This document shows, piece by piece, positions 1-32,244 of a DNA stretch of 64,000 nucleotides (positions within the stretch are counted from its first letter, which is position 1; each line of letters begins with the position of its first letter). Made by a program: the position numbers and the translations under genes. The notes under the pieces were generated by a model. The model had not been told where the DNA came from, did no database searches, and saw nothing but the letters and a program-made list of their open reading frames with translations. Origin of the DNA: Hymenolepis diminuta (Eukaryota; Platyhelminthes; Cestoda; Cyclophyllidea; Hymenolepididae); assembly GCA_900708905.1 (NCBI GenBank), contig CAADRB010000005.1, forward strand, positions 2,075,689 through 2,139,688, given 5' to 3'.

Positions 1-766
1 TCTAGACTAAATAACTTTTGGTACTCCCAGATTGGAGAATACCTGGCAAAGGCAGTTAATGACTGTACCGTTTGTGACATAACCTCAGACCACTTTGAAT
101 ACGAATCAACCAGGATTAAAATAGAGATTCCTCGGAGAGATCCAGCAAGACTGAGAATAATATGAGAACGTTAGGTCCAAAACATATAAAATTCCGATGA
201 TAGGGAAATACAGTCTCGCCTGCATTTTGTGTGAGCGCTTTTGACACTATTCAACTGGGCAAGAAAGAGATCTAGCATAACCAGTCTCCTCGGATTGCTT
301 GCACTTATCATCCAACGGTGCCGATTGCTCAAAACGGAAATGAAGTTTGGTTAAACTCGAACGCTGTTGCATTGACCAGGAAATGTAGGAGGTTTGATCT
401 TGATGTACTGATAAGCAGGTCTGGAGGTGGCAAAAGTACAAAAGCCTTCTTTCTATCCTTTTAGACGGTATACTTGATTTGTCTGGTAATGAAGCAGAGG
501 GGATTTCGGCACTGGTTACTGCTTGGACACTTTACACATGTTCACTTGAAGACTCCATGGAGTACATGAAATTCGTTTCTTCTACACTCTCTCTGACTGA
601 TAAGTGCGATTTCATGACATTATTGTCCGCCTAATCTTGAGCTGCATTAGGAAACCCCTTGGGAGAGACAGGTACACCTGGAGAATTAGTCGAATTTTTA
701 GAAGAATTCAGAGAAACACTGGTAGTTGATGGGTTGAAAAAAGAGACATTTTGGACTCAATTTTAG
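1..766 (+). pseudogene. Decayed coding region of unknown identity, in three frames
   Basis: I do not recognise this sequence, but it reads like broken coding DNA. Frame 1 is open from base 1 to a TGA at 163-165. Frame 3 reads well from about 240 to 465 and includes a GGGKST stretch. Frame 2 reads from 461 to a TAG at 764-766, interrupted only by a TAA at 632-634 and a TGA at 638-640. The last part is acidic and looks helical (it contains GELVEFLEEFRETL). Amino-acid composition is more protein-like than in the surrounding AT-rich DNA. The first segment has a CTVC that faintly resembles an integrase zinc motif, but this is too weak to name a family. It could be a transposon fragment or a dead host gene. 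The region starts at the window edge, so it may extend further left. Confidence 0.35.
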
Positions 767-2224
767 GAGAAAGACCCTTTATTTCGACGGACAAACTCTG
801 AAACATTTTGTAAAGAATTGTTATAGCCTAAGAAACCTCCAAAATATTCACAAATTTTGGAACTCAATAATAACTCGTAATCTCCTTACAGATAGACTTT
901 ACTCCAAAATTCTAAAAATCAACGACCCTGCAACTTGGTACACTTTAAAAAATACGCAAATTTTATAAATAATTAACAATAAAGTGTAAAAAATACAATG
1001 AAACGAGATAATCTGTCATGAAAATTATAAACCCGATTATTATCTCAGAAATTTACTGATGTGAATTTATGCAATTTTCTGCGAGACATACACTGAGATA
1101 AAACTTTGAAATTCTGGAGCATAGAGCAGGGAAATATTCGATCTGGCTATACTCTTAATTCATTTCCGATTCCATTCTCTTTACCTCATTGAATTATTCT
1201 ACAATTTCCATTGCTCAGACGCTTTCTCAAGGTTAAATACCTTAGAATGCTTTTTCCCCTCTATCGTGGAAAATTATTAGCAACGATGAGGCCTTTATTC
1301 AGTTAATTAACTTAACTGAAAACAGAGTCGTTAAGAAAATAATTGGCACTTTTAAGACTGAGCCCAAAAGAGTTCTTTAATGGATAGAAATGTTTAAAGA
1401 TGCTTTTACTCCAGACCAATAATGAACAAATATTCCATTTGCACGTGTAATAAAGGAGCTTTAGAGCAATCAAATTCATTTCAAATGGAGTGTCAGAAAA
1501 TTAACTGTAAAAAGATAGGAAGCTTTCTGTGGAGAAGTAATAAAAAGCTCTATGAAACTGAGAATATAGAACAGGCACCACCAATAAACTGCATAGGTTT
1601 GTGCATTTTATGAGCATGCTTTCCTCTGGTGCCGAATGGGATGACATTGGTTGAGGAAATGTCAGAGAAATGAATGTATTCAACCTTCATTTTTGTGAGG
1701 CCGATATTGAGCTCAATTCTTTAAAAATCAATTTTCTAAACGAAATAGCTAAATATCTTAAAAACCAGAGAGCATTAAGGAGCTAGGAACACCTTCTTTT
1801 CCTCCTGTTATGATAACTCAAACCCTTTGGAATATAAACCGCTTATCTTCTTTAGGAAAATGAAAGTCAGTGATATTTTGTTTTATTGGAGATCTATGTC
1901 ATATTATTAGAAGTTCAATTATGCTGATTTTCCGAAAGTGGTATGAGATATCATTATCTATTTGTGATAATAACCGCACGAAATAATCGTGAGAGGATTG
2001 ATCGAGGAATATGTATTTAACTAATTGAAAATAACATAAATGAAATTATTTTCTAGAAATTAATAGCTGATTCAATACAATCATAATTCCCTACTTATTC
2101 ATACCCTATCGTTATCTAACTGTGCGATGCCAGTTTGACCTGAAGTTATTAACCACGAGGCCAAATGCCTTTGATTGGCTACTCTCACATAGCCAATGAA
2201 ATTGTGCAAACGAAGAGCATGTGA
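767..2224. other. Non-coding region upstream of gene A
   Basis: AT-rich sequence with short open stretches only (for example 1422-1613) and no recognisable domain. It should hold the promoter and 5' untranslated region of the gene that starts near 2225, but I see no clear core promoter. A further upstream non-coding or N-terminal exon cannot be excluded. Confidence 0.4.
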
Positions 2225-2698
2225 GTGGTAGCCATCTTAACCCCTCTACTCAACTCCTACGTACTATGTTCACATCCACACATGTTGGGCAGACGACGCT
2301 GGCAGAAAAATGTCATTTTAGGCAGACAGACTTCGTCAACCCCTTTGTCGTCCCAAGGTGTTTTTAAAAGGCGATGTCGGGTGGCTGGAAGAGTGGCATA
2401 TATTGGCGGTGCAATCATCCTCACCTGTGCAGTAATTCTTGAAGGAATATTCACACGGATTCTGCTCATCCCCTACCTGAACGAAGCCGACTTCTTACCT
2501 ACAAATTGCGTAGTTCATGATAGTTTTTATGAATCTCGTGCTGGTATGCAGAGATGTGAGGGTAGATGCGCAAAGCTGGTCTCCGCGTTTCCTTGTTTGG
2601 TGGTGAGGGTACAGTATCACAGACTAACGGACAACTCATGGCAAACAGGACACCTGTTTGATCAACTTTTGTCATATCAGAAACGAAATCCTTATTTG
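2225..2698 (+). CDS. BK-channel beta-subunit-like (KCNMB/TipE superfamily) gene A, exon 1
   Basis: First exon of a two-exon gene; the product is about 256 residues when joined to 10964-11260. It encodes residues 1-158. Residues 1-55 form a basic cytoplasmic N-tail (KRRCR just before the membrane). TM1 is about 57-85 (AYIGGAIILTCAVILEGIF). The first part of the extracellular loop then has C95, C111, C115 and C124. The CxxxC and FPCLVV motifs are the hallmark of auxiliary beta subunits of calcium-activated (BK) potassium channels, two-pass membrane proteins that modulate gating. The donor TTG|GTAGGC at 2698/2699 leaves phase 0, as in paralogue gene B. The start is uncertain: the ATG at 2225 is the first in frame, and the ATG at 2282 is an alternative. 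Family assignment is from motif memory, not a search. The nearby insect TipE family, which has the same topology, is the main alternative. Confidence 0.82.
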
Positions 2699-5600
2699 GT
2701 AGGCTATTTATAAATTGTACATTTACTAATTACAAAAATTATTATGCATTTCAGCAATTCATATATTTTTATTGATGGTGATTTCTTGAGATTTAAAGTG
2801 ATATAATTTTCTATATAATTGGGAAAAAAATTGAGATTAGAGGAAGCTTTTTTATCTAATTAAGCCAAACGAGACCTTGCCTAGATCTGTAGGCATTCAC
2901 AGTTCTTATTAACGCTTTTTCATCCTTAGCGTTCAAAATTTTGACATATCTGGGAGTGCATTGACGGGCAGGGGATTAGATTTGAGTGAAAATTGCACTG
3001 GGTAATGTAATGTAATACATATATATTTGCATTCATTTGTATTCCTCTGATTTCGTCGAACAGTTCTAGTTCAAGGTCGAATGCCTGCATTTAGACTTGT
3101 TTGGCGACAATGCAATTCCTAAATCTATAATGACGAAGTCGTTAGTTGGACAAAGATATATGTTTTATATCACTTAAATCATCCTCGATAAAAAAAGGTA
3201 ATTTCTAAGCGTCCTAATATTTCTACTAAATACAAACCGTCAATTATTCCAGAAAAACTTCAACTTTCTAAATAATGTTTTGTCGATACCTATCAACCAT
3301 TTTCCATCTTATTATGGCCGTTTTTCTCACAGGAAGGGGTCCTTATTACTCTATATTTTATCTCATATATTTTAGTTCTTAACTAAAGTTCAACTTCATC
3401 TAAGCTGACATAAATTTGTCCGTAAGCATGAATGAACATGGGCAAATCTATTTGTCAAAACGATGAAAAAGTGGATGTTACACAAAGAAGCAAAATTTTA
3501 CAGATGAACATCACAGAAGCAAAGGTACGTCTATTGGAGGACAAAGATGCACTTTGAAGATGCAGTGATCGATTGCTCTTTTGCCATATCTGTTTGCGAA
3601 AGTTGCAGTGATCTGATCTGACGATTAAAGAAATTAAAAATTTGCACATAGCATTAAATTTTTCTAAAATGACGCATGTTTTATACTAAAATCCTTATTA
3701 AAATAATCATAATATTTCGATTATGGACGAATGTGTATATATCCGAAGGAAAAATTGCCTAAAGGGATGGATTAGTGCCTTTATATTTATCCAGAAGCAC
3801 GTATGGCTGTAATTTAAAAAGTGCTTGCGGAACTTCAAACTAGGTGCAAATTAAAATAATTCCACTGTTGGAGAGGTTGGAAAATTTTAACCTTAACGAC
3901 TCTCGGAGCATTGATTAAAGTGGACGTCCGCCAAATTAGAGGCCAAGATATTGATGTTCGTCTAGGCAAATCTTGTATTGTAGTTGGGCACTAGCATAGA
4001 ATTATTTCTGAGAAATAAAAAGGGTTGTGAAATATGAATTTCCCATCAGAGTACCTTTTCATTACCTAAATCTGGTGTGATTAACATTTCCTCTAATGGT
4101 TTCGCCCTAGGGAAAATTTTTCAATCATATTCCTCCATAACATTTTAATAAATATTTGCTTTTGAATTTAGTTACTTGATGAATATTTAATAAGGGAAAA
4201 TTTATTGTGCTTGGAATAAATCTCGGCAGTTTTTAACCATAATTTTGTATTCTACATTATACACGACTTAAAGATTCTAATAGCATTTCGCTTTGAATCT
4301 CATGACCAATTTGTGCTTTCACGTAGTAAAGCGATGGATTTAAGCTCTAACTTCTCCACATTGTTGATTGATATTTACATTTTAAAATGAACGTTTTCAC
4401 CCCCATAGCTTTTAAGCTAATAATAGACCACTAAAGATTTATTCAGAATGGAAATGGATTTTTTGCGGGAATTTTATTTCCTTGGGCCATAAGAAAAGTT
4501 GTGCACTTTTGGCCTTGTTTCCTTTGGCTTTAAACTATCGTGTTTGATAGCTTTCAACCTGACATAAAACACAAGGATTCGGAGAAGAAATGCTCCATAA
4601 GGGAGTTGTATTCATTTTCTAATCAAATTAAGTGAATTATTTTAAGCTGTTAACGCTATAGGTAGAATTGATATCCACGAAATAATTTAAATGTTCGCCT
4701 GTTATTTATGGGCAAACTGTAACCACGTAAGTCATTTAAAGTAAACAAGTACTGAAGTTACTTCCGATTGCATCAACATTAAACTACCTTTAATTAAAAT
4801 ATATATATATTTTTTCATAACTTCCTGGTCTAATATGGCAAAATTTCAAATGAATCAAACAAATAAATCCACCTTTTGGATGAGGAATATAAAGCTCATT
4901 TTCCATTGTTAATATTGTTTCTTTATCTTGACTCTCATTAATTTCGTTGAAATTTCACAGCTTGACCTGTTTTCTTCCAATTCAATGATTAGAAAAATGG
5001 ATTGAATAGTTTTGTACAAAGAATATTGCAGTTTTTATAAATTAGTTTATATTCATCTTTTTTAATTTAGATATTTTAGCAAGAATTAAATGAAATATTT
5101 ATACATTTTGGATAAATTCTTTATTTTATGCATTCAAATTGACTGAGGAATGATTGGTCTGCCATTTTTATTATAAAACTCATTTTTAAAGGTGTTCGAT
5201 TTGGTGAAAAACAGCTTTTACCTGAACGCTGCAAACTATAAAATGACACATGGGGCTATACTGGTACCTATCAGAATGTCAACCTCGGGCTTTGACATTT
5301 AAATACCTGTACTTGCAAGTCCTTGAGACACCTTCGGGTAAAGAGTAAAATTAATTCTCAAATAAAAGTTAATGAAAAATCATAAAACATTTCCAAAGCA
5401 ATTCACTTCAATCTTTTATGGAGGTATTAAAACTGAGTATTCACTCATCTGATCCATGCAATGTATATTAACTGTACAAAACACACGGTCAAATGGCGTT
5501 AAAAACATCCAAGATTGACGTGACAATACCACGTTTAGCTACGCCGGTTAATACTCAACAGTAAGAGAGAGGATAAAGGGTGATTTTCCTAATTTGGCAG

Positions 5601-8600
5601 TTCTAGGATACCCTTTCTCTACCTATGTCACAAAATCTTATTTTAATGGACCTAGAGAATTTTAATTCAATTAAATCATATTTCTGATAGTCATTTAAAG
5701 CAACTTTTTGCATTTCGCTTTTCTGTTAAATTTTATCTTATTGAAATTGTCAAACACAGATATTTATTTTAGATATGACATGTAATATATTTCTGCATAG
5801 ACTATCACTTTTAGATCAAAGAAAATTCTAAAAAACCCAATTACTGCGCTAGTTTTCTGTGGAAATCTAGAAAATAAAGAAAAAGTTAAAGAAATTTTCT
5901 GCGTTAATTAGGAGAATAAAAAAAATTTATAAATACCGAAATTTGAGCTAAATGAAAGATTTTTCATTTGCGTTATAAAACATCAAATAGAATTTAATTT
6001 ATTTCGAAAGAATTGCGCTTAAACATATTAAAGAGGGCACCTGAAAATTAAAATCTCGCTCCTCGATTAAAACTTTTCCACATTCTACTTCAATCTAACA
6101 TTTCATTCCTATCTTTCATTACTCCGTCCAGTTATCTGATCAATTTTTGGTGTGTGATAAATCTTTTGTCGAATTATATATATGACCAGCTTTGTATTAC
6201 TGAATCTAATTGATATTAGAAAGATCTAATTGCTAGCTTTCAAGTTACTAAAAGAGAAGGAAATGTATTAAAAATTACGATGGTTTAGAGAGATATCTTT
6301 TAATTTTGATTTTTGCTTGGTATCTCTAAGTTTAGGATTTCTTTTAAGCTTGTTAAATCAATCCACACTAGGTTTGTTTATCGCTTCACTTTGAAGAAAA
6401 CCAGAAAACTATCCAACTTGGCGTAGTTCTTCATGACATTTCCGGTTGATACTTCACTCACTTCACAAATCAGTTCCTACTCTTTTTAAATCAGAAAAGA
6501 CTGCATTTCGGAATATATAAGTATAGGAAGTTAGATGATGAGGCCACTCCCTTCTTCACAGAGACAGATTTCTTTCCTCGTGGTTTTTGCATTAATTTCA
6601 ACTTTGGGGTAACGTCATTTTTAATAATTATAAATTGTTATTCTTACATATTTTTTATACACCGGATTTTAAAATAGGCTTTGAGGTCTTGTCAACAATT
6701 GTTAAAATTTGAATTGTTATTCTTCTTTTATTCTTTATGCCTACTCGTTGCAACTAATAATAACTTCGGTTTACACGAAATCGTTCTTATTTTATTCCTT
6801 TTTTATCGCCGTAAAATCAATACTGTCTTTAAATACTTTCAAATACCTACCATTTTGGCTTTCAATTTACTGTATTTGACGCTATTCAAGTGACATTGAA
6901 AGTTTTCTTAAATAAAGAGGCCACATTGGTCTCCTTATGTCGTTTTAAATCGTTACAATAAGTGTCAATATGTCAACCCTCCAACAAAAGAGTTGCATTT
7001 CTATCCTTGTACGCTTTCACTGCGCATATTTTATGCGATACGGGTAATAATTACATATGAGCGTTCGCTTAAAACAAGCAAAAATGAGGAACAATGAATT
7101 TACTTTGCTAAAGAAATTATATTTTGCCTCTATTCGTAAGCCACTTTATTATACGATTCCAGTATTAATATCACAGTTACTTCAATTGAAGCAAGATTCG
7201 AATTTATAGAATTTATTTAAATAGTTTTAAATTACCTTGGGCGCAATGATCAACAAGGACTTTCAGTCCCTGATTCCCGATTGTTGTTGGAGGCAAGGAT
7301 GGTGAAAACGCCGCACATCAGAATTTCATCCTTAAGGTTGGAATTAGATTCAGCGCAAACTTCTTCAAAAGATGGTTCAAAAGGTCGCAAAATATGTTCT
7401 TCGACCTGAGAAAAAGAAACAATAATCCCTAATTACACGGATCGAATCCCCCTATCATTTTCCCGAACCTTTCCTTCACATCCGCTTGTCCGACCAATGT
7501 AATGCATATTGTCTTAATCAATAAGAGATATGATTATTAAATTAATACTAGCTTTTTCCATTTTAGCAGTAGATTAAATAATTTGCACATTTGACAGCAA
7601 AAATGGAAAATTTTCGAAAAATATTTTCAACTGAGTCTCATGATTTATTTTCCTATTAGTCAAACTTCATTTCTTTCTCCACTCTAAGTCTAAATTGGCG
7701 CTTTATTTACAAGCCCTCTTTTCTCTGTTAAATGAACAATGATGCAGATTTGAAAATATCAAAATACAAAGGGCTTAAAGTACAATTTTGAAGTGTCTTC
7801 TCTCGAACTTTTAAGGTCATTCTAACTGAACTAATTCTTTTATACTTTAATATCACATATATGTATATATATCGAGCCAAAATGTGTTTGAAAGAAAAAA
7901 TAATATAATTGCAGCTATTTACCCCAAAATATTCACAAAAATAGTAATAGAGACGAAAGAGAAGACAAATTTGAAGATTTTAAAACGATATTCAGTTGCC
8001 TTGGAAAAGTTGTACAATGTACAAATTTACTCAATAGTTTGAGTAAATAATTTCTTAAGCAAATGTTATTTTCAATATAGAGGGTAGAAAATATAAAATA
8101 AGTCATTAATATCGTCAAGGTAAAAACATTCAATAATTAGCCTATTTTCGTTTTCTCCTTGACACCTCGACTTTCTTTAAGCTGTTCCTTCCTTGTATGA
8201 CTTCAGCTTCGAGTTCATCCGAAGTCCTCTGGGCTCTATATGACCCCTTTTTGAGTTCTACGTCTGTTTTCTAGAGTCCTTTCCTTGGCTGGAAGTTTGA
8301 AAGTGTCCAAGAGGAGTAAAGTAGGCTGATGCTGGTACTGATTTAGTTCCCGCAATATGTGGCCTCAATTAATTTCTATGCCCGACCCAAATAGCATTAT
8401 TTACGTGGATTTCATAGATGACAACATTTCCAACTGTCCAGGAGTGCTCGATTCGGAAAGCACGAGCGGACACGAGATCGCCAGCAGTTAAACACCTCTA
8501 TGAAATTTTGCTGGTTCATTTGTCTTGCCCTTCGGTATCTAATATGGCTAATGATTCGAACTGTTCTCTCCATTAATAATTCTGCAGGCGATTTACCACC

Positions 8601-10963
8601 CAGTATCGGATAAGTAGTCGTCCTATTGGTTCGTAGGAACTTTCAAATAAATTTCCCCCTCCCCTTTTGTTTTCATTAGAGCCCTTTTGAATGTGTTGAC
8701 AAATCGCTCAACCTGGCCGTTAGATTGTGGTGATATGGAGGCTTACGGATGTGATTAATAATTCTCTGTCCACAGTGTTCTTCGAACTGCGTCGAACAGA
8801 ACTGTGATTCGTTGTCCGACACTAGATTTTCTGAGAAGCAATGCGTCGCGATACGGTAAAGGATACTGACTGTAACTGCACAATTTGTTAAAAGCAATAA
8901 TATTATTTCTGGTCACATAGAGTGTGAATCCACCAATACTAAGTAGACAACGTCATTAATAGGACCAGTAGAATCAGCAGCATTCTACTTGATGGTGTCT
9001 CCGTTTAGCACCAGGACATTGGTTTTTCAAATAACAGCATTTTGAAATTTGAGACACCCTTTGACAAGTAGTTATTGTCTTTGTTCATTCTCGGCCAGTA
9101 TGTGCATTCCCCGGCTAACGTCTGCATTAAGTTTATTCCTAGATGACTAGAGCGAAAATTTCCAACAATTATTTGCTTGAGTGCTGCATGTATTAAAGCC
9201 CTTTTATTAAACGTCAAGCAGGATTGGACAATAGATAATGTCTTTTAATAGCGGAAGAGATCCGACAAGTCCTCATATTAATGATGAGGATGGCCATTTC
9301 GTTTTGAAAAATACCATGGCTATTCTGGTGACTGAGTCTTCCACTGAAGCGTAATTTATTTCTGCCACCGTGACAGGAATATTCCGGATAGAGTTGACAA
9401 GAATGCAGTGTACATTCTTTTCCAGAGATATGCTGTTGATAACCGTTTCTTCCAGAGGTGTTTGCTGACTGACAATAAACAGTGATAATCCATCGCCTTG
9501 CTCGAACTCAGTAGTCTTCCCACATTTGATTTTGAACTCACACCCTATCAAGGCCATTCCCCAGCACTGAAGACCATTAGCCAAACATGTTGAAGTGCCT
9601 TGAATTCATAAATAAATAGCAAAGATTTGTGGTCTATCAGAAGAAAGAAATGACGACCGCAGACAAATTTATGCGATATCTTCACTTCATAGACAATAGT
9701 AAGTGTTTCCCAATTTGTCCACACTTCTTTTCTGCTGATGTCACCAAACGGGGGCATGAGCCATTTGGAAAATAGGTGAGGTTACCGCTTCACCTGCTGC
9801 GATGACTATCGACAAAACTGGATCATAGTCAGAAGCATATCTGATAGCTGCGTGGATTTTAGTCTCTCAAACCAGCGCCAGGTAGTGCTTTTTTGGAGGA
9901 AACGATTCAGTGGTCTAAGAACCTCATACAATACGGAAAATTGCTGCAGTAACCTATTAATCCCAGGAATGAAAGAAGAATTTGGGCATCGATTGGAGGA
10001 GATAAGCATGACAAACTTCCGAGTCAAAAATGAAGCCATGATATTTTATGGGTTTCAAGAAACCACACTTTTCCGGCCTCAAGAGGAATCTTTAGTTGGT
10101 AACGCGTTCAAACAAACATTCTTTTCACTCTTTAAGCTTTTTCTCCGTTTGTCTAACTATTACGATATCATCCAAATATGCAGCTGCACCCTTTAATTAA
10201 CTAACTAGATAGTAGAAGCTGTTTTCATTCAGACTGGAAGCCTAGCAAATTGATACCCGATGTGTGTTGATGGTGAAATATTCTCAACAATCTAGTTCGA
10301 TCTTGACTTGCAGATAAAACAGTAATAAATTCAACTTTTCAAAACATGTGCCACCGTTGACAGTGGCAAAATATGTCTTCAGCAACTGGAGGAGGATGAT
10401 GGTAATCTTCAAGAGCTGCATTCAGACCAGTGGAAAGATCGGCACATGAACGAATTCTATCATTCTGTTTTGGCGAGGTCTATTTAGAGTAAAGTAAAAG
10501 GTCTTACACTACGCCAATTCCTTTAAGAAGTGACAACCACCTCCACTACGCATTTTATAACAGAGAAGGAAACTGGACGCTTAGGAGGGAAGAATGATTT
10601 TGTAGTTTCTTCCAGGTATAGGTTTGGTTTCATTTTCGTGCTTCGACCTAGGCTATCTCTGAAAATCGTTTGGTTATGTCCCGTTCGTCTTCAGTCATTC
10701 AAATACCAGATTCATTTCTCTTATCTGTTTTATTAAGAGATTAGCGGGAATTCCTCAGTTTAATTGACTTAAATTTACTAAACTCATCTTTTTACATGAA
10801 TATTTGTGAATTTTCTGCAGCCTTGAAATCATACCTGTTTACTAATGCATAAATGTGTGTTTTCGCTGCTTTAGAATAGAAAAATGGACAAAAATTCATT
10901 TGAATAAATTTCGTCAAAGTAGATTTACCAAAATAATAAGGGAGATATTTTCTGTCTTTTCAG
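2699..10963 (+). other. Intron of gene A (about 8.3 kb)
   Basis: The intron is bounded by donor GTAGGC at 2699 and acceptor TTTTCAG ending at 10963, phase 0. From 2699 to about 8150 it is AT-rich with no recognisable gene; there is a short AT microsatellite near 4800-4811. From about 8150 to 10490 it carries a decayed Ty3/gypsy pol in antisense. The remainder up to the acceptor is unremarkable. Confidence 0.75.
8150..10490 (-). mobile_element. Decayed Ty3/gypsy-type retrotransposon pol, antisense to gene A
   Basis: Read on the minus strand from 10490 down, the domains come in canonical gypsy order but in shifting frames. The reverse-transcriptase front is about 10490-10200 (ADLSTGLNAALEDYHHP, then INTHR). 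An intact YLDD catalytic box lies at 10178-10167. The distal RT is about 10060-9806. RNase H is about 9757-9548 (KFVCGRHFFLLIDHKSLL). The linker to integrase is about 9584-9356. The integrase zinc region is about 9217-9005 (SSHLGIN, TYWPRMNKD), with the expected CxxC cysteines replaced. The integrase core is about 8900-8520 (LVSDNESQF, then a GKSPAELL-like segment). The C-terminal chromodomain-like segment is about 8480-8340 (VNNAIWVGHRN, LRPH). Multiple frameshifts and stops make it non-functional. No gag or flanking LTRs were recognised. The element lies in an intron, which explains its tolerance. Confidence 0.88.
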
Positions 10964-11260
10964 TGTTCAATCAGACCCTGCAGTTTCCGAAAAGAAAGTA
11001 ACTCCCTGATGGTGTGGAGTTTTAACTGGAGTCTCAGCCACAAACACACCTTCCCATGCTATCTGCGTGAGAATGCGGTTATTTTAAACAAGGTTCACAA
11101 TTTCTCCACTACATCGCATGCTCTCCTTTGGCCTGTCTTTACCGCCTTTTGCAGCCTTGTTCTCCTTATTCTCCTGTGGCGCCTTGTCGGTTGTAACGTC
11201 TGGCATGAAGAGGACAACTTTCATAATTCAATTATTGTAGAAAATACAGAGATTATTTGA
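10964..11260 (+). CDS. BK-channel beta-subunit-like gene A, exon 2 (loop end, TM2, C-tail)
   Basis: Second and last exon, residues 159-256, ending with TGA at 11258-11260. The acceptor TTTTCAG|TGT at 10963/10964 keeps phase 0. The exon opens exactly at a cysteine pair (CSIRPC, C159 and C164) that corresponds to the CSYIPKC-like pair of vertebrate beta subunits. It continues with an NWS sequon (N179), FPCYLREN (C190), VILNK, an NFS sequon (N204) and TM2 at about 211-233 (ALLWPVFTAFCSLVLLILL). A short acidic C-tail follows. Of about 80 aligned residues with gene B exon 2, I count about 49 identical, with no gaps. Neither exon alone is a plausible protein; the two together have the length and topology of the family. 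No AATAAA was seen immediately downstream. Confidence 0.84.
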   Translation, partial: CSIRPCSFRKESNSLMVWSFNWSLSHKHTFPCYLRENAVILNKVHNFSTTSHALLWPVFTAFCSLVLLILLWRLVGCNVWHEEDNFHNSIIVENTEII

Positions 11261-14200
11261 GCTGAAGATTTTTCATCTACTCTTCTTTATGTAAAATATA
11301 ATACAACCGTTTATTTGCCTTATATTGTAGAAATCTTCTTAATTTCACCGATCAGAACGTCTATGACAGTTAAAATGAAATATTATTCAAGGTCAATCAT
11401 CAGTAACTTGGAGATGTACATCTAATACCTATGTACTCATGTTTTATAAATTCTATTAGGCAAATAGCTTGTCCATTGTCTCGGATATGTATCTTTCCCC
11501 AAGCTTTTGCCTTTTAAAAGTGCTTTTAGGAATAGAAAAATACCTGCAACGACAAAATTTTATGGGACATATTTAAAAGTGTTATACTACCTTACATTTG
11601 CAGGCTTTATTATTAAAACCATTCATATTAGTCTGATAAGAGAGTTTGTAGTATTGGTGGTGCCTTTGAAAGGACACTAATTTATCGATTAGCGATTTTA
11701 AACAGCAACATTTACTGCTTTTACGGCTAAACAGACAGCCAATCGATTTTCTTCATTACTAATAATAGAAACAATTACTTTACTAATCAAATAATTGATA
11801 AATATACCTGTAATTGTAAAACTGTAGATCTCTTTTAGCATTTAAAAACGGAGACTAGCATTCTTTTGTTTGTTTAATAGTGGATTTCTTTTAATTTAAA
11901 TATAAGATATAAATTATTACAATTAGAATCTGGAGATATTAAGAAATAATTTAATGAAGGGAGGGGATGAAAACTTTAAATCAATTTACCAATTTTGCAA
12001 AATGTAGAAAAAAATTGTATTCAGTTGTAATTTTTGTATTAAAGTAACTGATAAAGTTGTGAATGATTTAGGCTCAGTCCACAAACCCCTCCGTGTAAAA
12101 AGTGAGCAAACTAATGCTCAGAATTTAAATGAAGTAAAATTCTTTTGATGTCCGGATTTTGTTCTAGGCTTTTATTCAGTATCTTCCCTTTCAGTAACTC
12201 TATTCATTCAATCAGCTTTATTTCTGGTTTTTATTTTGTTTTACAGATCATTTTACGATTTTCTCAAGTCCTTGAAATAGCTTGTTTAACTTCTGGTGGG
12301 GTTCGTTAAAACATACATTTGCCGACACTTAAGAGATTTCAACAGTAATTAAAACAATTTTTGCTTCATTTCAATGTTTTTTTTTGATGAATTTCAATAC
12401 TCAACGAAAATTATATAAAATTCATAAATAATTAATTATTTACTACGTCATAATATGGATTCACTTTGTTCTGAAAATCTTAAGATGAGATGAGAATGAA
12501 CTTCTCAGAATTTGCGGATCGCGGAGTTCGAATGATGAATCTTATTTTGTTTTTCTTCGAATTTGTAAATTATTTTTAGGAAATGAAAGATTTCCATGAA
12601 CCTTTCGTATTCACACTTGAACAATAAAATGAAAAATCATTATTTCATTTTCCACTTGGTGGGCAGAACTTAAGGAACTGGGAAGGAGTTATTATTATCA
12701 ATCACCACTCACATTATTTGAGAAAGTTAGTCTTTATGCTATATATAATTGAGTCCCATCGGTAAACACACATTTTATATTATTTCAGCGTAGAATCTAT
12801 TTTTATCAGATATGTCCCACCCCAGAATCCTTTTAATCTGGTATTTTCCGCGGCCGCTTGATTTCAAAGAAGTAAAATTAAATAATTCTCCAAGGATCAG
12901 GTTCGCTGCAAAACAACTAGTGATAATAACACGCGTTAGCTTGGACGTGTTCCAACTGCGGCAGAAAATTTTTCTGTCTATTAAATTAGGTGGACCAATA
13001 GAGATCAACAAGAGGATGATTTTACCAGTTGTAGGTTGAATAAGGAACCGATCTAAAGTTAGTTTTCCACTTAATGGACTCATTAAAATTTACATGCAGA
13101 AAGTTAACATCTGCGTACTTGAGGTATTTTCAACTGCACCAATAAGAACTTCATTGGTATTATTATGATAACAAGATGGCATCCACGAACTAAACAGAAT
13201 AGAATAGAAAGCATGACTGAAGAATCGGTTAACACCTAAGATGTATTGATCAAAGTTACTGTCCGAAAACGTGAAGTAAGCAGGAAACTACACTTGATCA
13301 CAATTGCACACTGCTATTCATGCGTTTCTTTATACAGGGAATGAAATGAGGTAATTGAGACCAATAGGAGCTTAGCTTTACTTTGATGACGCTTATGATG
13401 GAAAATGTAACAAGCAATTAAATTAATATTATCATAAACTTAAAAGCACGGGATAAAAGATGAAATGTAACTAAGTTGACAGTGAGTTGACTAATTCAAG
13501 TATACTCTATTGTACTCAAAATAGTTTGATCAGTGTCTTATATTTCAGAACATTCTAGAAAATTCAAAATTTAACTATTCCGTTTAAATAAACGCATGGA
13601 TAATGAACTTTATTTTAAATATATCTTTTGTATTTAATTACAATTAACTTCAGCAACAGTAAACTCTGTTATTTTAAAATGGGCTACTGAAAGGACATAC
13701 ATCGAAATTTTTCGATCAGTTATATGAGCTAACCAGTTTGCAAATAAGTTGTGGACACAGGTGGCAGAAAGTCAGTTTAGGAACCTAGGGAAGCAAATGT
13801 GAAATTAGAATACTAGAATAATAAATTACGAAGTAATGATTTGTGATAACCTTGAATTGTGAATATGATTTGACTCCTGAGAAAATGGATAATCATCTTT
13901 CTTAATATTCAAAGATTATTAATTATTTTTTGTATTTGAATGATTGAACATGACACTATCGTGTGAACAACTACTTACCATGAATTCTGGGACGGTTTAA
14001 ATTCTCATCCCCGGTCGCTAAATTTCCAGCCAAATTGTGCTCAAAGTTATAAGATTAGAGAACAACTGAATGCGTCTATTCAGGTTAGGTACAATTAAGG
14101 CCGTGTCTTGAAGAGTCCCTTTCACATAGTATCACAGACAACTCATATGCTAAAGGTTTCTAAGGGTAAACTTTGCATTCTTAATATGAGACACGGATTA

Positions 14201-17152
14201 CGAAACTTATCAGTTCGAAATGGCGTCGCCACCAGGCGTTTCACCTCTTCGATTCATTGATAACTTCTTCCAGACCTGTGCAGGTAGATGAGGAAATTAA
14301 AAACCTTTTAAAAATAGTGGTAAAAGTATAAACTGGATGATAATTGTTTCATTTTCAAGTAAATAAAGTTATTTCATTGATCAGCAGAATATTTTATCAT
14401 TATGGTCGTTATATTACTAATGCTCCACTGGAAGACTGCAATCATGTAAAAATGCATGCATTGCTTTTAGAAAAACTCGCATTTCATTATGTTTGTCTCA
14501 TAATAGCATTTTACTTAGTGGTATCACGTTTTAATGCAGTTTTGGAGCACAAAGCTGTTTGACGCTAATATCCTCTTTTGAGTCCGTCATAAGCAAACCT
14601 TTGTATTAAAATATACCTAAATTCAAATCGCCTAACAGGACATGATGATAACAGGATTTAGAAGGAGTAAATAATAGCTTAGAATCATAGTCACTTCAAG
14701 GTTTAGATTAGCCATTATCCTTCTAACTGCATTTGATTCTCCCCAACACAAGAGGATGGAGAATGCAGAAATACCGTGTTAAAAGGTTCTATTGAGCACG
14801 AAGAGGAAGCTCAGAGGTATGACAGAAAGAGAAGCTTTATGAATATAAAGATGTGGGTCGTGGATAATGTTTAGGTTTACAGATGAAGTTTATACAGATC
14901 CGGTTGTTCACTTTCGGAAACTGCTCAAAGACTGACCGAACAGTTTCATCCAGGAGTGAGTTGTCGCTTAAATTGGGTTGGAATTATTCTCACAAATGTC
15001 ACTTCGCGGAGTTTGACTGGTGATCAAAGTGACTGCAGAAAAGGACGAAATGTTAGACAGATGTTTTCCAGATAAAAAATAAAAACCGTCGTTGTGTTCG
15101 GAGTTAACTCACATCACTGATTTGACTGACAGGAAGACGACCGTGAAATAGTATAATGATCGTTATTCTCACAAGGAGACAAATTTATTAAGATTCCTTA
15201 ATCACACCAAAAATGAAGGAGTAAATTTTATTAAATCTTTACAAAGGCCAAAAATCTAAAAATGCCCATTAAAAGTGAAACTTGAAATGAGATACAAACT
15301 GCTTAAATAATACTCATTAAATAAAGATGAAAACGTCATTCCTTCCGATTTTTTGGTCGGTACTTGGATCTCAAGACAAGTGATTGAAGATTTCGGTAGA
15401 TTTCGGTTTAAGAGCAAAAACATAGCACCCATTTGCATGTTCTAAATCTCTCATTTCACAATCCACCTCCTCCATACGCAGCCAACGCAAGCGCTCAATT
15501 TTCCACTTTTAGTAAATTTTATGGTGGTGTCACACCCATTTTAGCAGTAATGCAGACGTTAGTTGCAACTAGTTTGCGAGTATTTTACCTAATTTTCGAC
15601 ATAAACGAATGAAATTTGACTAAATTGTCTTAAGATGGTTAGATTGAATAGAATTTATTCAAAGTGAATTTCACGAGTCAAAGGATTTTTGGACATCGTG
15701 ACGGCGAACTCAATTAGAAACCAAAAGGGGATATCCAGAAAGTCAACTTTTGAAAATTCGGTCATGATGCAAAAAATTTTATTTATTCAGTATAATGAAA
15801 CTTTAGCTTAATCTTTAAAATTTTGCAATCCATGATAATGAAGTTGCAAATTTTAATAATGTTATGACATCTCAATAGGGAAGTAACAAGGCTGACGAAT
15901 GGAATATGGAATAGGCAGCAGAACAGAAGCTAATAATGAGATGAAAATATTGAGAGTTAAACTTTCTTTACATTCTAAAAGAAGTGAACTGTTCATTATC
16001 AAATTAGACTAATACTTTTCTTCGCATTATCCAAGTCCCCTGAAGACCAATTTTTAGAACATGCTGATCTTGCCCATTTCTTTTATTCCTATCTCCTTTC
16101 ATTTAAAAAAATTTAGACGAGACTATCGAAGAATTATAAGATAGATATTAACTCAAATTCAATCACTTAAATTAATTTTTTGTTTACTAGAAATCCAGTA
16201 GACGAAAATACTTTCCAATATCAAATCTCTATCAGGTATTTTCTCCCTGCTGTTCGATGAAATATTCATTAGAATACAATCCGCAACTTTTCTGTATTAA
16301 AATTTGTTCTCGTCTCTCTTCGGGAAATAATTTTAGTTGATGTAAAATTATTTCTGAAGGAAGCATAAGGGTGGTCTATATGAATGTCTAAGAATATCAA
16401 GGAAACATCTGCTCAAATCAGGAAGTTTATAATGATCAATAAATATTGAATATCAGTATGGAAACCTTACTCTCATTTCAGCTCTATTAAGCTAGATCAA
16501 TAGAAAAGCGAAAAATGTTTCACAGGACACTCACGGGCATGACACATCTACGTCACATCTTAGCAGATCAAATCAAATCAAAGGGGATTAAGACGTAGCC
16601 ATATTTCATCGAATTTTCATCGATTTATCCATTATCTGACTAATTATATTCTATCACATGAAAATTAATTAACAGTATTGTCTAGAACAGTCTTCTCCAC
16701 CCAATGAAAATATAGTTTATTGGTATAAAAAGGGTCAAAATTGGGCCAATAATCATCTTGGGGTAAGATCCTTTCCGTTTTCTCTCGCCTGAAATCCGAT
16801 GAAATATGATTTCATAAAAGTGGGGACTTGGTTTTACTGTAGAGCATATACATTTTATCTGCGAGTGACATTTATTAAAGTGCGTCTTAGGCAACGAAAG
16901 AAACAAATGAAATATGTGAAAAGATATTTGAACTATAAGAAAATGCCAGAATAATTTAAGATTGACAGTTACTTTTCAAAATTCATTTTTCTAATCACTT
17001 GCATAGCAATACCTTACAGTGACTTAATGGCTAGAGTTTGGATTTTGCGGGCAATTAAATAGGCCGTAAGATTGATAAAATTCATATAATCGGATAGACG
17101 ATGTTTATTGGCTGAGTTCACTTAACCAATGATATCAAAATTCCAATGAAAA
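11261..17152. other. Intergenic region between tandem genes A and B
   Basis: About 5.9 kb separate the two paralogues. The sequence is mostly AT-rich, with scattered short open frames and no recognised domain. The exception in texture is 12775-13083 (listed separately). A locally less AT-rich stretch around 14740-15130 may be an old repeat, but I could not assign it. The promoter of gene B must lie toward the right end. Confidence 0.5.
12775..13083. other. Dual-strand open stretch of unknown origin
   Basis: The minus strand is open for 102 codons (13083-12775) and the plus strand for 75 codons (12812-13039) over the same bases. The block is locally richer in G+C than its surroundings and contains an octamer GCGGCCGC (at about 12849), which is striking in such AT-rich DNA. 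I recognise no domain on either strand. It could be an exon, a fragment of an old element or chance. It lies between the two beta-subunit-like genes and has no matching block near gene B that I noticed. Confidence 0.2.
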
Positions 17153-17611
17153 TTGCTACTCACTCATTTAGTTCCACTTTGTCTCATTAGCTTGGTTAAG
17201 ACGGGCATGTTTAACAAATGTGACTTCTTGGAGAATTTAACAATCAAAACCTCGGCATACTTCTCAACCAACAAGAGGAAAAAAAGATGTCGCTTGTTAG
17301 CTAAAGCCCTTTATATCGGCGGAGCTACTATTTTCACTTGTGCATTGTTACTTGAAGGAATTTTCATTCGTATCTTATTCGTGCCCTACCTTCGAGAGTC
17401 GGATTTTTCCCCTACACAGTGCGTATTGTACAAGACTTTCTATGATAGGCGTGCGGGGATGCAGCGCTGTGAAAGTCGGTGCACAAAAGGCGCCTCTGCA
17501 TTTCCTTGTCTTGTTGTTTGGGTAATGTTTCTCAAACCGGGGAATAATTCTTGGCATTATGGATTTTTGTTTGATCAATTAGAGTCATTTCAGAAAAGAA
17601 AACCCTATTCA
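17153..17611 (+). CDS. BK-channel beta-subunit-like (KCNMB/TipE superfamily) gene B, exon 1
   Basis: First exon of the downstream paralogue, residues 1-153 of about 254. It has a cytoplasmic N-tail ending in a basic KRKKRCR cluster (residues 41-47). TM1 is about 52-80 (ALYIGGATIFTCALLLEGIF). The early loop has C90, C106, C110 and C119 and an NNS sequon at N131. The motif line RCESRCTKGASAFPCLVVWV combines the CxxxCTK pattern seen in TipE-type proteins with the PCL-V-V of KCNMB proteins. The donor TCA|GTAAGT at 17611/17612 is strong and leaves phase 0. From the basic cluster onward it aligns with gene A without gaps for 111 residues; the first about 42 residues do not align convincingly. The ATG at 17153 is the first in frame, and the ATG at 17207 is an alternative start. 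Confidence 0.84.
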
Positions 17612-20462
17612 GTAAGTTAAGAACCGACTAAATATAATTTTTAAATTATATTTCATAAATGCTCACATTTTAAAATAATAATTAAGCAGGTTTAAACAAC
17701 AAAACGGCAAATTCTTAATTAATCGAAGTAAAATTCAAAAACTATAGATATTTAGAATGATTTGCTTTCGGTGAAGTAGTAGTCAGTGGTTACGAGACTG
17801 ATTTTCATAGGTGAGCATCCAGTGATATCGGTGGCCAACTAACTCGTTAATTCTCCTCAACATGAGGATATTATAATATAATTTGCCCATAGGTTTGTCA
17901 CCAGAATACCTTCCGCTTACTTGAGTCAATCATTTTCAACCATTTTTGCAATGTATTTGAGAAGTTTAACTGTAGTGCTTTAAATTATTGCAAAACAGTC
18001 GTGAATGAATTTTTTTTCCAAATGGCCTTCAACTATATTCCGATCATCTCCGTGTCTGATTTAATAATAAGTCATCCTACATATGAGCTTCTTTGAGTTC
18101 AGGAGATTTTGCATACCGTTTCGTTATACTTATCAATTTGGTACGATGGTATAATATCTCACGGATTTTAGAATTTCACGACGTTATAGTACTCAAACAC
18201 TGGAATAAAATTCCAGAGAACAGAATAGAATATAATGACCTCTCGTAGGGTTATAATACGCCTTCCAATCTTTAAAAATAGCGTTCACTAAAATACCATA
18301 CTTTACTAGTAGACTGAAAATTAACCATGAAAGTTTGGGCATTTTTCAAGGGATGTCACTCATATCCGACGGTTAAGTAATGAATCTACATGAGGACGGA
18401 CTTGTAGAATATATTTATTGTGACTCACTATTTTTTAAAAGTCGAGAAATTGAAATATTCAAATCTAAAATTTATAACAAAAAAAATTTTCCATTTACTA
18501 TGGTTCTATTACTTCAAATTTTAATAAGAACACGATCACTTTACAAATATTAATAATAATTTTGACAATGCGTTATTTTTTCCCAATTATTCTTAAGGCG
18601 GTAGAGGTGAAATTACAGCCAGAAATATTTAAAGTCCAGTAAACTGAATTTTTTTATTAAATTAGAAAAGACAAACTATAGTGCAGTGTTTATCTTCCAG
18701 TTAATTTGCTCTTACATTCTTTCAGGTTGGCGATTTAAGGTTATCTTGGGTTCTGTTTAGCTGTCACATGCAATTACTTGTTAAACTTTCAGGCCAATCA
18801 GGCTTGATTTTGCTTAATGATATCTTCATCGATTTCGAACCTGTGTTTCATCACTTTTTAGCTTTTGATTTTTTCTTAACACGAGTCTTAAACTTTCTTG
18901 AAGGTTGTTTCTAAGTGCCCAATATTAATATTAATACTCGAGCGCCCATCGCTCCCGACAGCTTGGCAGTCATGTAGGACAATAAATGTTATCAGTCCTG
19001 CGGTGTTTTGATTACTGGACATCAAAAACGTGAAAACAACTCGCATTCCTACATAATACTTTTGTTTAGTCAATGAAATATCTTGGAGCAACTGCATTCT
19101 GTCTTATCTTTCTGCGTCTGAGTAAAATGTTGTCTAGTGATATCTAGTTGGTGAATATATTATAGCAGCAGAAACTGGACTTCGAAAAGTCCTAAAAAAA
19201 GAGTTAGTAGAGGTCAACTGAAATCAAGACGCCATGTTTCAAAACGGGCATGGCAGATATTTGCTGCCCTTTGTAAGACTTAAAAACTTTGCAATCGAGT
19301 TATGAAGGCGAAAAGGATCGTCTATTTTATATTGAAAAAAATATTTACATCTATTCATAATTCTAATGCTAAGGAAGTTTAACTGATGCCCTTCTATTTT
19401 GTACCCCGTTTTCATGCCCTATAATTATTATACAGGTGCGATATTTTGGTAATTTACTTCCGCAATATATTATCCAAAAAGGGTTGAAAACTTGGATATC
19501 ATCAGTTCGTTCGCAGTTAGAAACGCAAACGGGGAATTTTTCCACTTATGATTTTTTGCTTCAAAATGGGGTAGCCTAAAAAAATTTTTTCGTCGTTTCA
19601 GTTCTAGACAATAATTTCAGGATGAAGACGGGTGTAGCAGACGGTTAAAGAATTTAGTTGCAACAATAGTTATCACAAAAAACGAGATGAGAAAAGACCA
19701 ACACAAATGCATGTATTAATACGCCTTTATCTACACTGACATCTGCTAGAGAAACGTCCAAGACTAAGCCTGTTTGAACTGGGATATTTAGCAAAGTGGG
19801 CTAGAATGTTTTAGGAGAATGAAAGTAAATGAAATATGAGTAAATGGATACTGAGAGAACATCTACCATTGGCCCAAAACCATATTGGGGAGCTTAACTG
19901 TGAGGTCAGGTCAGCATGTCACCGTTGAAGTCGATCACAATTATTATAGATCTTAATTAGTCAAACATATTATTATGCTACCTATTATTTACCCTATAAA
20001 TGGGAAGTAATTTCTTAATACACTGGAGTGTTTTTTTCTCTAATTTAAAAATTAAATATTTCTAATTATGTTCAAGCCTATTAAAAGTGGAAAAATGTAG
20101 TTTACACTATGGAAAATAAGTTAAATCGGTTAGGAAAGAAGGAGTAGAAGATGGGAAAATGTTAAGATTTAAGTCAGACTCTGAAAGGACTCCTTTCAGA
20201 CTTCATTTGGTGTACTGAATTTGGATTTTAAATATAAACCTTATGGATCGTTCACTGACCCCAGTTCATGATTCATTCTCTGTATTACTAAACAGTTTCG
20301 GCCCATGAAATGCAGTACTAACTGACCATGAGCAATTAAAATGGTCAGCCTTAATAATAACTGAATTAGTTTCTGCATTCATTCCTAGATATGGTAATAT
20401 TTTTAAATACTCAAATAATTTCAATTACATATTTTCAGTCATCTCCGTTTTTTTATTTAAAG
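17612..20462 (+). other. Intron of gene B (about 2.9 kb)
   Basis: The intron runs from GTAAGT at 17612 to the acceptor TTTAAAG ending at 20462, phase 0, the same position as in gene A. It has no gypsy insertion, which accounts for part of its shorter length. A weakly tRNA-like segment around 17777-17830 (possible A box TAGTCAGTGG, possible B box GGTGAGCATCC) may be a decayed SINE. The rest is AT-rich with nothing recognised. Confidence 0.7.
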
Positions 20463-20768
20463 TGCTCGATTCGGCCATGTAAACTGAGGAGAGAGAAAAA
20501 TGCAATGAGTGTAAGATTATTCAACTGGAGTTTGAGTCAGGCGCATTCCTTTCCCTGCTACCTTCGTGATAACACTGTGATTTTAAACAAACTTCGCAAT
20601 TTTTCCGTCGCCTCACATGCGATCTTCTGGCCAGCTTTCACAGCTATTGTCAGTGCGCTTCTTCTCCTCTTTTTCTGGCATCTTGTTGGTTGCGGCTTTT
20701 GGAATGACGAAGGTACTCATGTAAGCAGTAGTGTGAACGAAATCAGTCTGACACATGCTAGAATTTAA
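20463..20768 (+). CDS. BK-channel beta-subunit-like gene B, exon 2 (loop end, TM2, C-tail)
   Basis: Last exon, residues 154-254, with TAA at 20766-20768. It begins with CSIRPC (C154, C159), as in gene A. It then has an NWS sequon (N174), SFPCYLRDN (C185), VILNKLRNFS (sequon N199) and TM2 at about 206-228 (AIFWPAFTAIVSALLLLFF). A C-tail of about 25 residues is rich in Ser and acidic residues. VILNK, followed about 13 residues later by FWP at the TM2 entry, closely parallels vertebrate beta2/beta3-type subunits. The reading frame is also open upstream of the acceptor (from an ATG at 20391). The alignment with gene A and the acceptor AAAG at 20459-20462 place the exon start at 20463. A candidate poly(A) signal AATAAA lies at about 20831. 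Confidence 0.84.
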   Translation, partial: CSIRPCKLRREKNAMSVRLFNWSLSQAHSFPCYLRDNTVILNKLRNFSVASHAIFWPAFTAIVSALLLLFFWHLVGCGFWNDEGTHVSSSVNEISLTHARI

Positions 20769-23700
20769 GTGAATCACTGAACTATACTGTATTTTTAAAA
20801 TGTATTATTCTTATTAATATTTTAATCAATAATAAATAATTTTTGGGTCATTAAGATTTGATTGTCCTTCTGTAAACTGGAATGTCCAGAGTGAGCTGCT
20901 AAATAAAAGCTTGGGACAGCCAAAATTTATCAATCCAAATTTACTCAAATTTAGAATTCTAAAAGTGAATGAACGGATCTGTTATGCAAATATAAGACTG
21001 ACTGAGTGATTTCAAGGTGCTATTAACGGATATTCGCCCAAAATTGAAATCACTTCATGAGTCCATTATAGAGACAGAGTAAATTTAAGATGGAGATGTA
21101 ACCACCAATTTTACTAACAATGGCAAATATTACTATAAAACAGAGTAAAATTTATTACTTTTAATTTTGTACAACATTTTAGAAAATCAAATAGGAGATC
21201 GTTTTCTATTTTCACTTGAATATGATGCTCCCATATCCATTAAACCCTTTCACTTAAGGTACTTAGGCATTAAAGTTCATCGGAAGGCTAAGTTCAGAAG
21301 TCATTGGGCGAATTAAGTCGACTCGTTGCCAGTTAATATAAACGGAAATCCAAATTCATATGAATTTTTGTAATCTTGCCTTTTACCGGAAATATTTTTG
21401 GAGGAATAAGAAAGTTGAAATTATACCCGCATGAAAGATTGGTCGACGGCATTCAATCTTCATTTATATCGATTTAAAAATGACAGCTTGACGAATTAAT
21501 AATAAAACTCTTTATGCTGCCTTAAACATTCGTAAACTTGACAGCATAATATTAGATTAAAAACTGATATTAGAATAGATGATACCGTGTTTTTTATTTA
21601 TATACACGGTAATAGTGGCAAGTGTCCTTCTGTTGTACTATCGAGTATACTGAACTTCTATAAGAACTGTTAAGGGCTCGACACAAGTTTAAAGCTGTCA
21701 TACTTTAACTAACAATCACTTTGTGGTTCCTTTGTGGTCATTGATGAAACTTAAAAAGGGTTTCGAATAGTCAGTTTAACTTTGAGTGGACAAATAAAGC
21801 ATGGTCTAAAAATAGAGTAAACTGAAACGAAGGGGGATAAAAAGTAGAGGATATAAAAAGGTTGAGGAAACAAATTCAAAGGGTAAAAAGGGCGAGAAGA
21901 AACAATCATCTTGTCATGATAGCTATTTTCGCTTAGTAGCAGCATTGGTCAATGGGTAGGTATATCTCAGGTTCTGTTTCTTATTACAGGGATCTTCAAT
22001 AGTAGTGCTGGTTTGTACACATTCTTGCAAGTGATCAATATTACTGACTCGGACAACTGAGTATGATGCTACAAACCTCTGTCTTGTTGTATCCAAGTAT
22101 TCGGGAGTATAAATGGAACCATGGATGTTTCATTATTAGCATATTTCAGATGATTAATAAATGTCATATTAAAAAAAACACTTAAAAAGCTGGATTTGAC
22201 TGATAATAACCTGCCAGTGAATATCAAACTACCTTGTTTGATGTAACATACAAACAACTAGTAAGTCCATGAAGATTGGCCAAAATCCTAGTAATAGTTG
22301 AAATCGATGACTAAATCTGCCAATGCTGTCTATATAAAGTTTTAAGAGATACCTTTTCTCCCTCTGCCAGAAAAGCATAGAACACTTTGATACTGCAATA
22401 TTTAAACAAGATTTATCTCATTTACGATAATGGAGGAATGAGACTTTAAAGCATTTAAAGTAAAAGTCGAGGTGCCTTTGGAGTCCAATCAAATTAGGCT
22501 AAGGGACATTTTCTTTCAAAATAAAACACCTTTCTAAAGCCTAACAGGATAAATAAGTTCTTTTTCCCTAATTCAAAATGCAAAGAGCTGAGGTAAATCA
22601 GAGGATTGTAAGAAATAAGGGAGTAGGTAAGTAAGTAAGGGAGTAAATGAGAATAGTAAGCCGATAATTAAAAGATTAGCAAGACTGAAAGGGGGATTAT
22701 GATGAAAAAGTTTAATTAAATCATATAGGAATGAATCGGATGTATCATAAGTTTTGATAGTTTGATGATAATTTAATTATATTATCGTCTAACATGACTT
22801 ATGTATTAATACGTGGGTTATTTTTAAACGATTTTACGGAAACGCCATTTACAGACACTCCATAGCAAAGTTCTCAATTTTTCCGAAATTTGATTGTTCC
22901 ATGCTTTTATTGTGGAGGCTGGGTAGATAAAAGCATTTTACGACAGGTTTCGATGCATACGAAGTTTCATTACAGGCATTTATGACTGTATAACCATGAA
23001 ATTCAAATAGCGTGGGATAATTGAATGCGAGATTTACCAAAAATAATGGATGATGTAAATATTATATAATGACTGTATTCACCCACTAACACTTGGGACA
23101 AAGTCTCTTCGTTTAAAAGCAAACATAACTAGATTAAATAATCAGACGTGAAAAATAAAGAACGGGGACAAATAATGAGATCATGATGTTAATTAATATA
23201 AACGGAACCCTAAAATGTGCCGATGGTGTCACCAAATGTACAGCTTATATAACTTGCAAAGTATATTATTATGCACAAAGCACACAGGCACTTTTAACAT
23301 TTATTTAAGAAGAGTTCATCGATGTTAGCTGAAATGCTCACAGAAGCCAATTAGACTCAGAGATTGGTATTCTAGCAGTCATTCTGACAATAATAACCAG
23401 CTTATATAAATATGCAATTAAGAGTAGTGTTTTGATGAGCTTTGACATCATGTCTTTCCCATTAATAAATTTTTGATCTTGTGGAGAGCTCACCTTTACC
23501 TTACTTTACGGACTCAATTACGTCAAAATGCAGGTGACCATGTGGTCAATGATTTCTGAGTAATGTATCTATGCTAAATATGCAGTTTTTTTCAAAACAC
23601 AAAATGAAAATATAATTTTATCTGACAGTTAGTTTATTCATTAAAATGCCTACGAATCCCTGTTGTGATAAAGTAAATTTATCGTATTTCCGATAGGTCA

Positions 23701-32134: not shown

Positions 32135-32219
32135 TTCATGTCCTTATGACGCATAATCCCCGTCTGCCGTGTCCAANTTCATGTCCTTATGACGCATAAT
32201 CCCCGTCTGCCGTGTCCAA
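32135..32219 (+). repeat. Exact 42-bp direct duplication separated by one N
   Basis: The 42 bases at 32135-32176 recur identically at 32178-32219, with a single N at 32177 between them. A perfect duplication across an ambiguous base next to a gap is most simply an assembly-joining artefact. A true short tandem repeat is the alternative. Confidence 0.85.
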
Positions 32220-32244
32220 ACGCGCCCATCGATTTTCCCCCCTC

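Follow-up and report, generated by a model that had tools for sequence, protein, structure and literature searches.

A tandem pair of BK beta-subunit-like genes in the tapeworm Hymenolepis diminuta belongs to a divergent, expanded cestode branch of the CaKB superfamily

Two tandem genes encoding two-pass membrane proteins

A stretch of 64,000 nucleotides from contig CAADRB010000005.1 of the cestode Hymenolepis diminuta (positions 2,075,689 to 2,139,688; hereafter the window, to which coordinates refer unless a contig is named) carries on its forward strand two tandem genes, here called B1 and B2, that encode two-pass membrane proteins of the CaKB superfamily (PF03185), the superfamily of the beta subunits (KCNMB) of the big-potassium (BK, or Slo1) channel. 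A sequence-only reading of this DNA had joined two pairs of open frames into two such proteins, and the tandem exon pairs it described are confirmed here.

In B1, the open frames 2225-2698 and 10964-11260 join into an open frame of 256 residues in all, and the first in-frame methionine, at 2282, gives a protein of 237 amino acids. This is also the start used in P0001, a deposited Hymenolepis diminuta 'unnamed protein product' that is 100% identical to B1 over its full length. The first coding exon (2282..2698, + strand), which agrees with P0001, runs from the methionine to residue 139 and encodes a basic N-terminal tail, the first transmembrane segment (TM1; hydropathy core at residues 45-63, 2414..2470; helix 24-69 in the predicted model) and the first half of the loop. 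It is followed by a phase-0 intron of 8,265 bp (2699..10963, GTAGGC...TTTTCAG) that ends directly 5' of the cysteine with which CSIRPC opens, and by a second coding exon with the stop codon (10964..11260, +) that encodes CSIRPC, FPCYLR, VILNK, LWP, the second transmembrane segment (TM2; core at residues 192-210, 11120..11176; helix 186-214 in the model) and the C-terminal tail.

B2 is built in the same way from the open frames 17153-17611 and 20463-20768, which yield 254 residues from the frame start and 236 from the first in-frame methionine at 17207. Its first coding exon (17207..17611, +; methionine to residue 135) includes the TM1 core (residues 30-48, 17294..17350), its phase-0 intron of 2,851 bp (17612..20462, GTAAGT...TTTAAAG) occupies the same position as in B1, and its second coding exon with the stop codon (20463..20768, +) holds CSIRPC, FPCYLR, VILNK, FWP, the TM2 core (residues 188-206, 20619..20675; both cores by hydropathy) and the C-terminal tail. 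Around the junctions other frame-keeping GT/AG pairs exist, six for B1 and three for B2; the joins given here are preferred because that of B1 reproduces the deposited protein and because the intron precedes the first CSIRPC cysteine in both genes as it does in four other genes of the family. Both introns are of the GT/AG type. The features on which the sequence-only reading relied are in place: the open joins, two hydrophobic segments per protein, the motifs CxxxC...FPCLVV, CSIRPC, FPCYLR and VILNK in both proteins, and a TM2 that starts with LWP in B1 and FWP in B2.

Over 233 aligned codons, 53% of the residues of B1 and B2 are identical. The proportions of nonsynonymous and synonymous differences (pN and pS) are 0.294 and 0.816, the synonymous distance (dS) being saturated, and third codon positions carry 142 of the 285 base differences. 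In a blastn comparison of window positions 1-11999 with 12000-26000 the similarity is confined to the exons, and the duplication is therefore probably old. N-terminal tails diverge strongly among the paralogues in the alignment; the first 36 residues of B1 contain nine Lys/Arg and no Asp/Glu, and the first 32 of B2 eight Lys/Arg and two Asp/Glu.

Membership of the CaKB superfamily

The search with the Pfam CaKB profile that the sequence-only reading had proposed places both joined proteins above the curated cut-off of 25.1 bits: B1 scores 44.4 bits (E 2e-11, profile positions 13-182 of 195) and B2 47.5 bits (E 2.2e-12, positions 9-180 of 195), and both exceed the cut-off only as joined proteins. 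Compared with the PDB, the cestode profile returns no chains other than BK beta below E = 0.1, and the predicted model of B1, compared with known structures, finds only Slo1-beta4 and beta2N-beta4 chains at E <= 0.001, its fold matching that of the beta4 chain. Two transmembrane helices around one large loop, as in CaKB proteins, are present by hydropathy and as the two helices of the B1 model. B1 and B2 are members of this superfamily, and the earlier description of tandem BK beta-like genes in an invertebrate finds support in Pfam, in the PDB profile comparison and in the predicted fold.

Among the closest known systems, vertebrate KCNMB4 (BK beta4; PDB 6v22 and 6v35) has an architecture comparable to that of B1 and B2, with two transmembrane helices, a loop of similar length, a matching predicted fold, seven alignable cysteines (C1, C2, C3, C5, C6, C7 and C8), a YPC/FPC motif and the (L/F)WP that opens TM2 in B1 and B2. 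The cestode proteins differ from it in the absence of cysteine C4 (27 of 27 rows) and in a Lys or Arg in place of Glu before C2 (25 of 27), and B1 and B2 also have a two-residue insertion between C1 and C2 and a basic tail ahead of TM1. Insect TipE/TEH proteins likewise have a pair of hydrophobic segments that flank a loop, in which disulphides are putative; the loops of TipE, Teh3 and Teh4 are longer than those of Slo-beta subunits, and Teh3 and Teh4 contain epidermal growth factor (EGF)-like domains (PMC3240667). In contrast to these longer loops, about 128-139 residues lie between the hydrophobic cores of B1 and B2.

An expanded family in tapeworms

A translated search of the genome (170.6 Mb, 203 contigs) with B1 revealed four further loci, on contigs C3, C9, C53 and C96, which brings the family to at least six genes. 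Each of the four can be read as two exons separated by a phase-0 GT/AG intron directly before the equivalent of cysteine C6, so that one intron position is common to all six genes; for the four, start codons and exon boundaries are those of predicted models. All four exceed the CaKB cut-off, with 56-59 bits for the C3 and C9 proteins, 44.1 for C53 and 38.5 for C96. The C96 paralogue (L019, C96:63157-67615) is a 338-residue model with two loop insertions, and its longer loop superficially resembles TipE in length.

Relatives of B1 and B2 were found in Echinococcus, Taenia and Mesocestoides, so that genes of this type are not confined to H. diminuta, a correction to the lineage-specific pair of the sequence-only reading. 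The named relatives are uncharacterised or misnamed; among the misleading labels are 'Seipin' for P0006 of Taenia asiatica and 'GP46-like surface antigen' for P0004 of Mesocestoides corti. B2 has a partial relative in P0008 (68% identity over 136 residues), and P0085, which is not among the rows of the tree described below, shares 65% identity with B1 across 47% of the B1 length. Several tapeworms have relatives of the C53, C9 and C3 proteins, some of them annotated as 'calcium activated potassium channel subunit'. The proteins labelled as channel subunits (Echinococcus multilocularis, Hymenolepis microstoma, Rodentolepis nana) belong to the same superfamily and have the same loop pattern as B1 and B2; their related H. 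diminuta copies are those on C53 and C9. Their identity to B1 and B2 is about 28-33%, and the tree places them away from the B1/B2 group.

The tree comprises 28 rows, with KCNMB4 as its sole vertebrate family and no other KCNMB, TipE or outgroup. In it, the B1/B2 group is separated from the remaining cestode rows with a support of 90/84. A branch with 100/100 support, subject to a long-branch warning, divides the cestode-type rows from the five KCNMB4 rows. B2 and P0008 fall outside a group formed by B1, P0003, the Echinococcus, Taenia and Mesocestoides proteins and two unnamed rows (93/97, unstarred, with the fork drawn open). The profile search, of which 120 of 192 proteins were listed, returned proteins that by name are cestode, vertebrate or from nameless sources; such a search depends on words shared with the query and says nothing on molluscs, annelids, trematodes or planarians. 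In the open-licence literature, no paper on flatworm BK beta subunits was recognised by title and abstract start among the matches listed. The 'new auxiliary-subunit family' of the sequence-only reading therefore stands in part: the superfamily and some automatically labelled cestode members are known, and what is new is the expansion into a branch that has seven loop cysteines and a basic crown position.

Loop cysteines and crown charge in the cestode branch

The loops of the six H. diminuta proteins contain seven cysteines in the pattern C-x12-15-C-x3-C-x8-C-x32-60-C-x4-C-x25-C, leaving out of the count a cysteine inside TM1 of the C9 and C96 proteins. KCNMB1-4 are described as having eight loop cysteines and four disulphides (PMC5854672, PMC6298698). 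In human beta4 these are paired C54-C148, C68-C119, C72-C76 and C84-C113 (PMC5854672), and a different, partial pairing has been deduced for beta2 (C1-C5, C3-C7 and C6-C8; PMC6298698). Because the C1-C2 spacing of the C9 and C53 types is 13, equal to that of beta4, the missing cysteine is most simply C4. It is absent from all 27 cestode-type rows compared, and cysteine C3 is kept in 26 of them, with a leucine in P0004 of Mesocestoides. On the beta4 scheme, a C3-C4 hairpin disulphide could not form in the cestode proteins because C4 is absent, and C3 would be left free.

The second difference concerns charge. In the Slo1-beta4 complex, two glutamate rings, E64 and E67, are directed toward the central crown axis, and beta1-beta4 keep acidic residues at both positions almost without exception (PMC6934384). 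At the E67 position, just before C2, the cestode branch has Lys or Arg in 25 of the 27 rows and Met in two. At the E64 position, only two rows are acidic (Asp in the protein from contig C3, Glu in P0004), and B1 and B2 have Gly; all ten KCNMB4 rows, which were chosen from many listed, have Glu at both. The 27 rows, a count that includes near-copies and gene-model fragments, are drawn from the six genes modelled in H. diminuta, from 16 database rows with cestode names and from five rows without a species name that resemble B1/B2 (P0003, P0007, P0008, P0009 and P0085). Outside the count are P0001 (identical to the B1 model), P0005 (with the same N-terminal part as P0002), P0017 (in which this section of the loop is missing) and rows that are short or unnamed, e.g., P0015, P0018-P0020, P0029, P0031, P0033, P0035 and P0040.

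Candidate partner channels

The BK_channel_a profile matches four exons on three contigs of the genome (C199:154697 and 170519; C158:398537; C65:2199598). In the PDB, the C199 exon, which extends from S0 to RCK1, matches BK at 1.9e-107 and 5tj6 at 2e-107, and the C158 and C65 exons match BK at 8e-32 and 2.5e-13, respectively; the Slo1 identity of the three loci is based on these matches. The 5tj6 structure is Aplysia Slo1 according to PMC6934384. Three Slo1-like loci, counted from exon matches, contrast with the usual situation, as a single gene encodes the BK channel in almost every animal species (PMC4270693).

The genome also contains exons of a four-domain voltage-gated sodium channel of the Nav1 type at C63:444400-471400 (L056, L035, L055, L048 and L029), which carry the LFMTEDQKKYYQAMKK inactivation gate. 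The domain IV exon gives 162 bits with Nav chains and 136 bits with those of voltage-gated calcium (Cav) channels, and the identification as Nav is based on this preference. The motifs ITQDYWE (domain I), CGEWIE (II), TFKGW (III) and TSAG (IV) are also present, and we take them to form the DEKA filter of Nav channels. A search with the Na_trans_assoc profile gave no match, a null that is uninformative as the controls were silent too. These exons contradict a general statement in a review (PMC6259924), in which Nav1 is said to be lacking in parasitic flatworms and only Schistosoma is named. The argument that a BK partner follows from the absence of Nav1 is ruled out by the same exons.

A probable role in BK gating

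A BK partner is preferred because the relation found, in sequence and in fold, is to the beta subunits of BK channels. With at least six members beside three Slo1-like loci, we consider it probable that B1 and B2 belong to a divergent and expanded CaKB branch that modulates the gating of tapeworm Slo1. In the Slo1-beta4 complex, four beta4 subunits lie between the voltage sensors and contact Slo1 almost only via TM1 and TM2, the extracellular crown is built by contacts between beta4 subunits, and the N-terminal tail affects activation kinetics (PMC6934384). By analogy with this human complex, B1 and B2 would likely form a four-membered ring around tapeworm Slo1 that tunes its gating, with TM1 and TM2 placed between the voltage sensors and the disulphide-tied loop forming the crown above the pore. 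The Lys or Arg in place of the pore-facing Glu before C2 would render the throat of the crown less negative or even positive. Cations and cationic toxins would then be drawn to it less strongly, and outward rectification, as attributed to positive rings in beta2, might result. The divergent N-terminal tails may confer separate BK kinetics on each paralogue, much as the different beta subunits provide different kinetics in mammals.

Several observations weigh against this assignment of B1 and B2. The exon-by-exon CaKB scan of the genome reported only the C3 and C9 genes and not the exons of B1 and B2, and identity to KCNMB4 is about 25-31% in partial alignments only. Ten of the 32 rows in the alignment behind the B1 model were KCNMB4, and the fold match is thus not independent of the sequence relation; a single-sequence fold of P0001 was poor (a predicted local distance difference test score, pLDDT, of 50.4) and was not used. 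The exact degenerate DNA pattern for QDDDDDP, which we take to be the calcium-bowl motif, had no match in the genome, a result that an intron or divergence may explain. The charge reversal depends on equating the second loop cysteine with C2, and the position that follows C2 holds Glu or Asp in all 27 rows, an acidic residue that could offset the change; given this residue, the net field of the crown would have to be read from a structure. The related insect TipE proteins act on Nav and, in cell lines, had no effect on the fly Slowpoke channel (PMC3240667). Finally, Nav1-type exons, a candidate for a TipE-style partner, occur in the same genome.

This last point leads to the idea, which we judge unlikely, that B1 and B2 are TipE/TEH-like helpers of Nav1 that would likely raise its surface expression and speed its kinetics. 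The C63 exons, with their four presumed DEKA filter motifs, their inactivation gate and a domain IV that favours Nav, provide the channel for it, and TipE and KCNMB4 are distantly related (PMC3240667). However, B1 and B2 match CaKB and BK beta chains, and no TipE profile was listed at E <= 10 for B1, B2 and the C96 protein or at E <= 1 for the C3, C9 and C53 proteins, in searches without a TipE positive control and with HMMER filters that discard weak matches; none was listed either for P0002 of Echinococcus or for two KCNMB4 proteins. Of the combined KCNMB/TipE superfamily first suggested, the CaKB part is the one that Pfam names.

It is improbable that B1 and B2, while retaining the CaKB fold, act away from BK, either as an independent surface protein or on another channel, such as that of the Kv4/Shal type encoded in the window. 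Their CaKB scores of 44-47 bits are lower than the 56-59 of the C3 and C9 proteins, but similar to the 44.1 of C53 and above the 38.5 of C96, and, like the other cestode rows, they have one loop cysteine fewer and lack the acidic ring. On the other hand, the core loop and TM2 motifs are retained, relatives of the two genes are also kept by Echinococcus, Taenia and Mesocestoides, and the Kv4 gene in the same window means little, as adjacency on a contig is weak evidence for a common function. A chance coincidence of open frames, or a pseudogene in one of the two positions, is highly improbable: among the matches listed (120 of 192 rows in the combined alignment search) there is no near-identical full-length record of B2, but the frames are intact, the introns match, third-position differences are in excess, P0001 is identical to B1 and P0008 is a partial relative of B2.

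Evolutionary significance

PMC6934384 presents auxiliary subunits as a novelty of mammalian Slo1 in comparison with the invertebrate channel. An ancestral subunit for an ancestral potassium or sodium channel, which later served potassium channels in vertebrates and sodium channels in invertebrates, was proposed by Li et al. (2011; PMC3240667). Because at least six CaKB genes occur together with three Slo1-like loci and a Nav1-type channel in this tapeworm, the question of the ancestral partner becomes testable in one animal. If B1 and B2 do act on Slo1, BK-beta regulation would predate the split of the vertebrate and invertebrate lineages, and the acidic-to-basic change in the crown gives a direct and measurable prediction for toxin block and rectification. 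A broader scenario, tentative and in our view rather doubtful, is that BK and its beta subunits form an ancestral bilaterian system, elaborated in tapeworms into six genes with a basic ring, three disulphides and, in the Arg-rich N-terminal tail of B1, an inactivation ball, the Nav role of insect TipE being derived.

Neighbouring features

The Kv4/Shal-type channel gene lies on the reverse strand of the window, with an exon at 60214-61335 (-) whose best PDB matches are KCND2 (1.9e-151) and a further Ion_trans exon at 44805-44939 (-). An open reading frame at 41206-41622 (-) gives a weak match (E 0.16) to DUF3399, presumably the C-terminal domain of Kv4. At about 32150-32594, the window contains unreadable bases flanked by short repeats, an assembly gap or masked stretch. 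Elsewhere in the genome, C3:2216060-2219344 and C109:136028-139312 show ion-channel exon matches whose scores and spacing are the same on both contigs, which may reflect a duplicated or alternative-haplotype contig.

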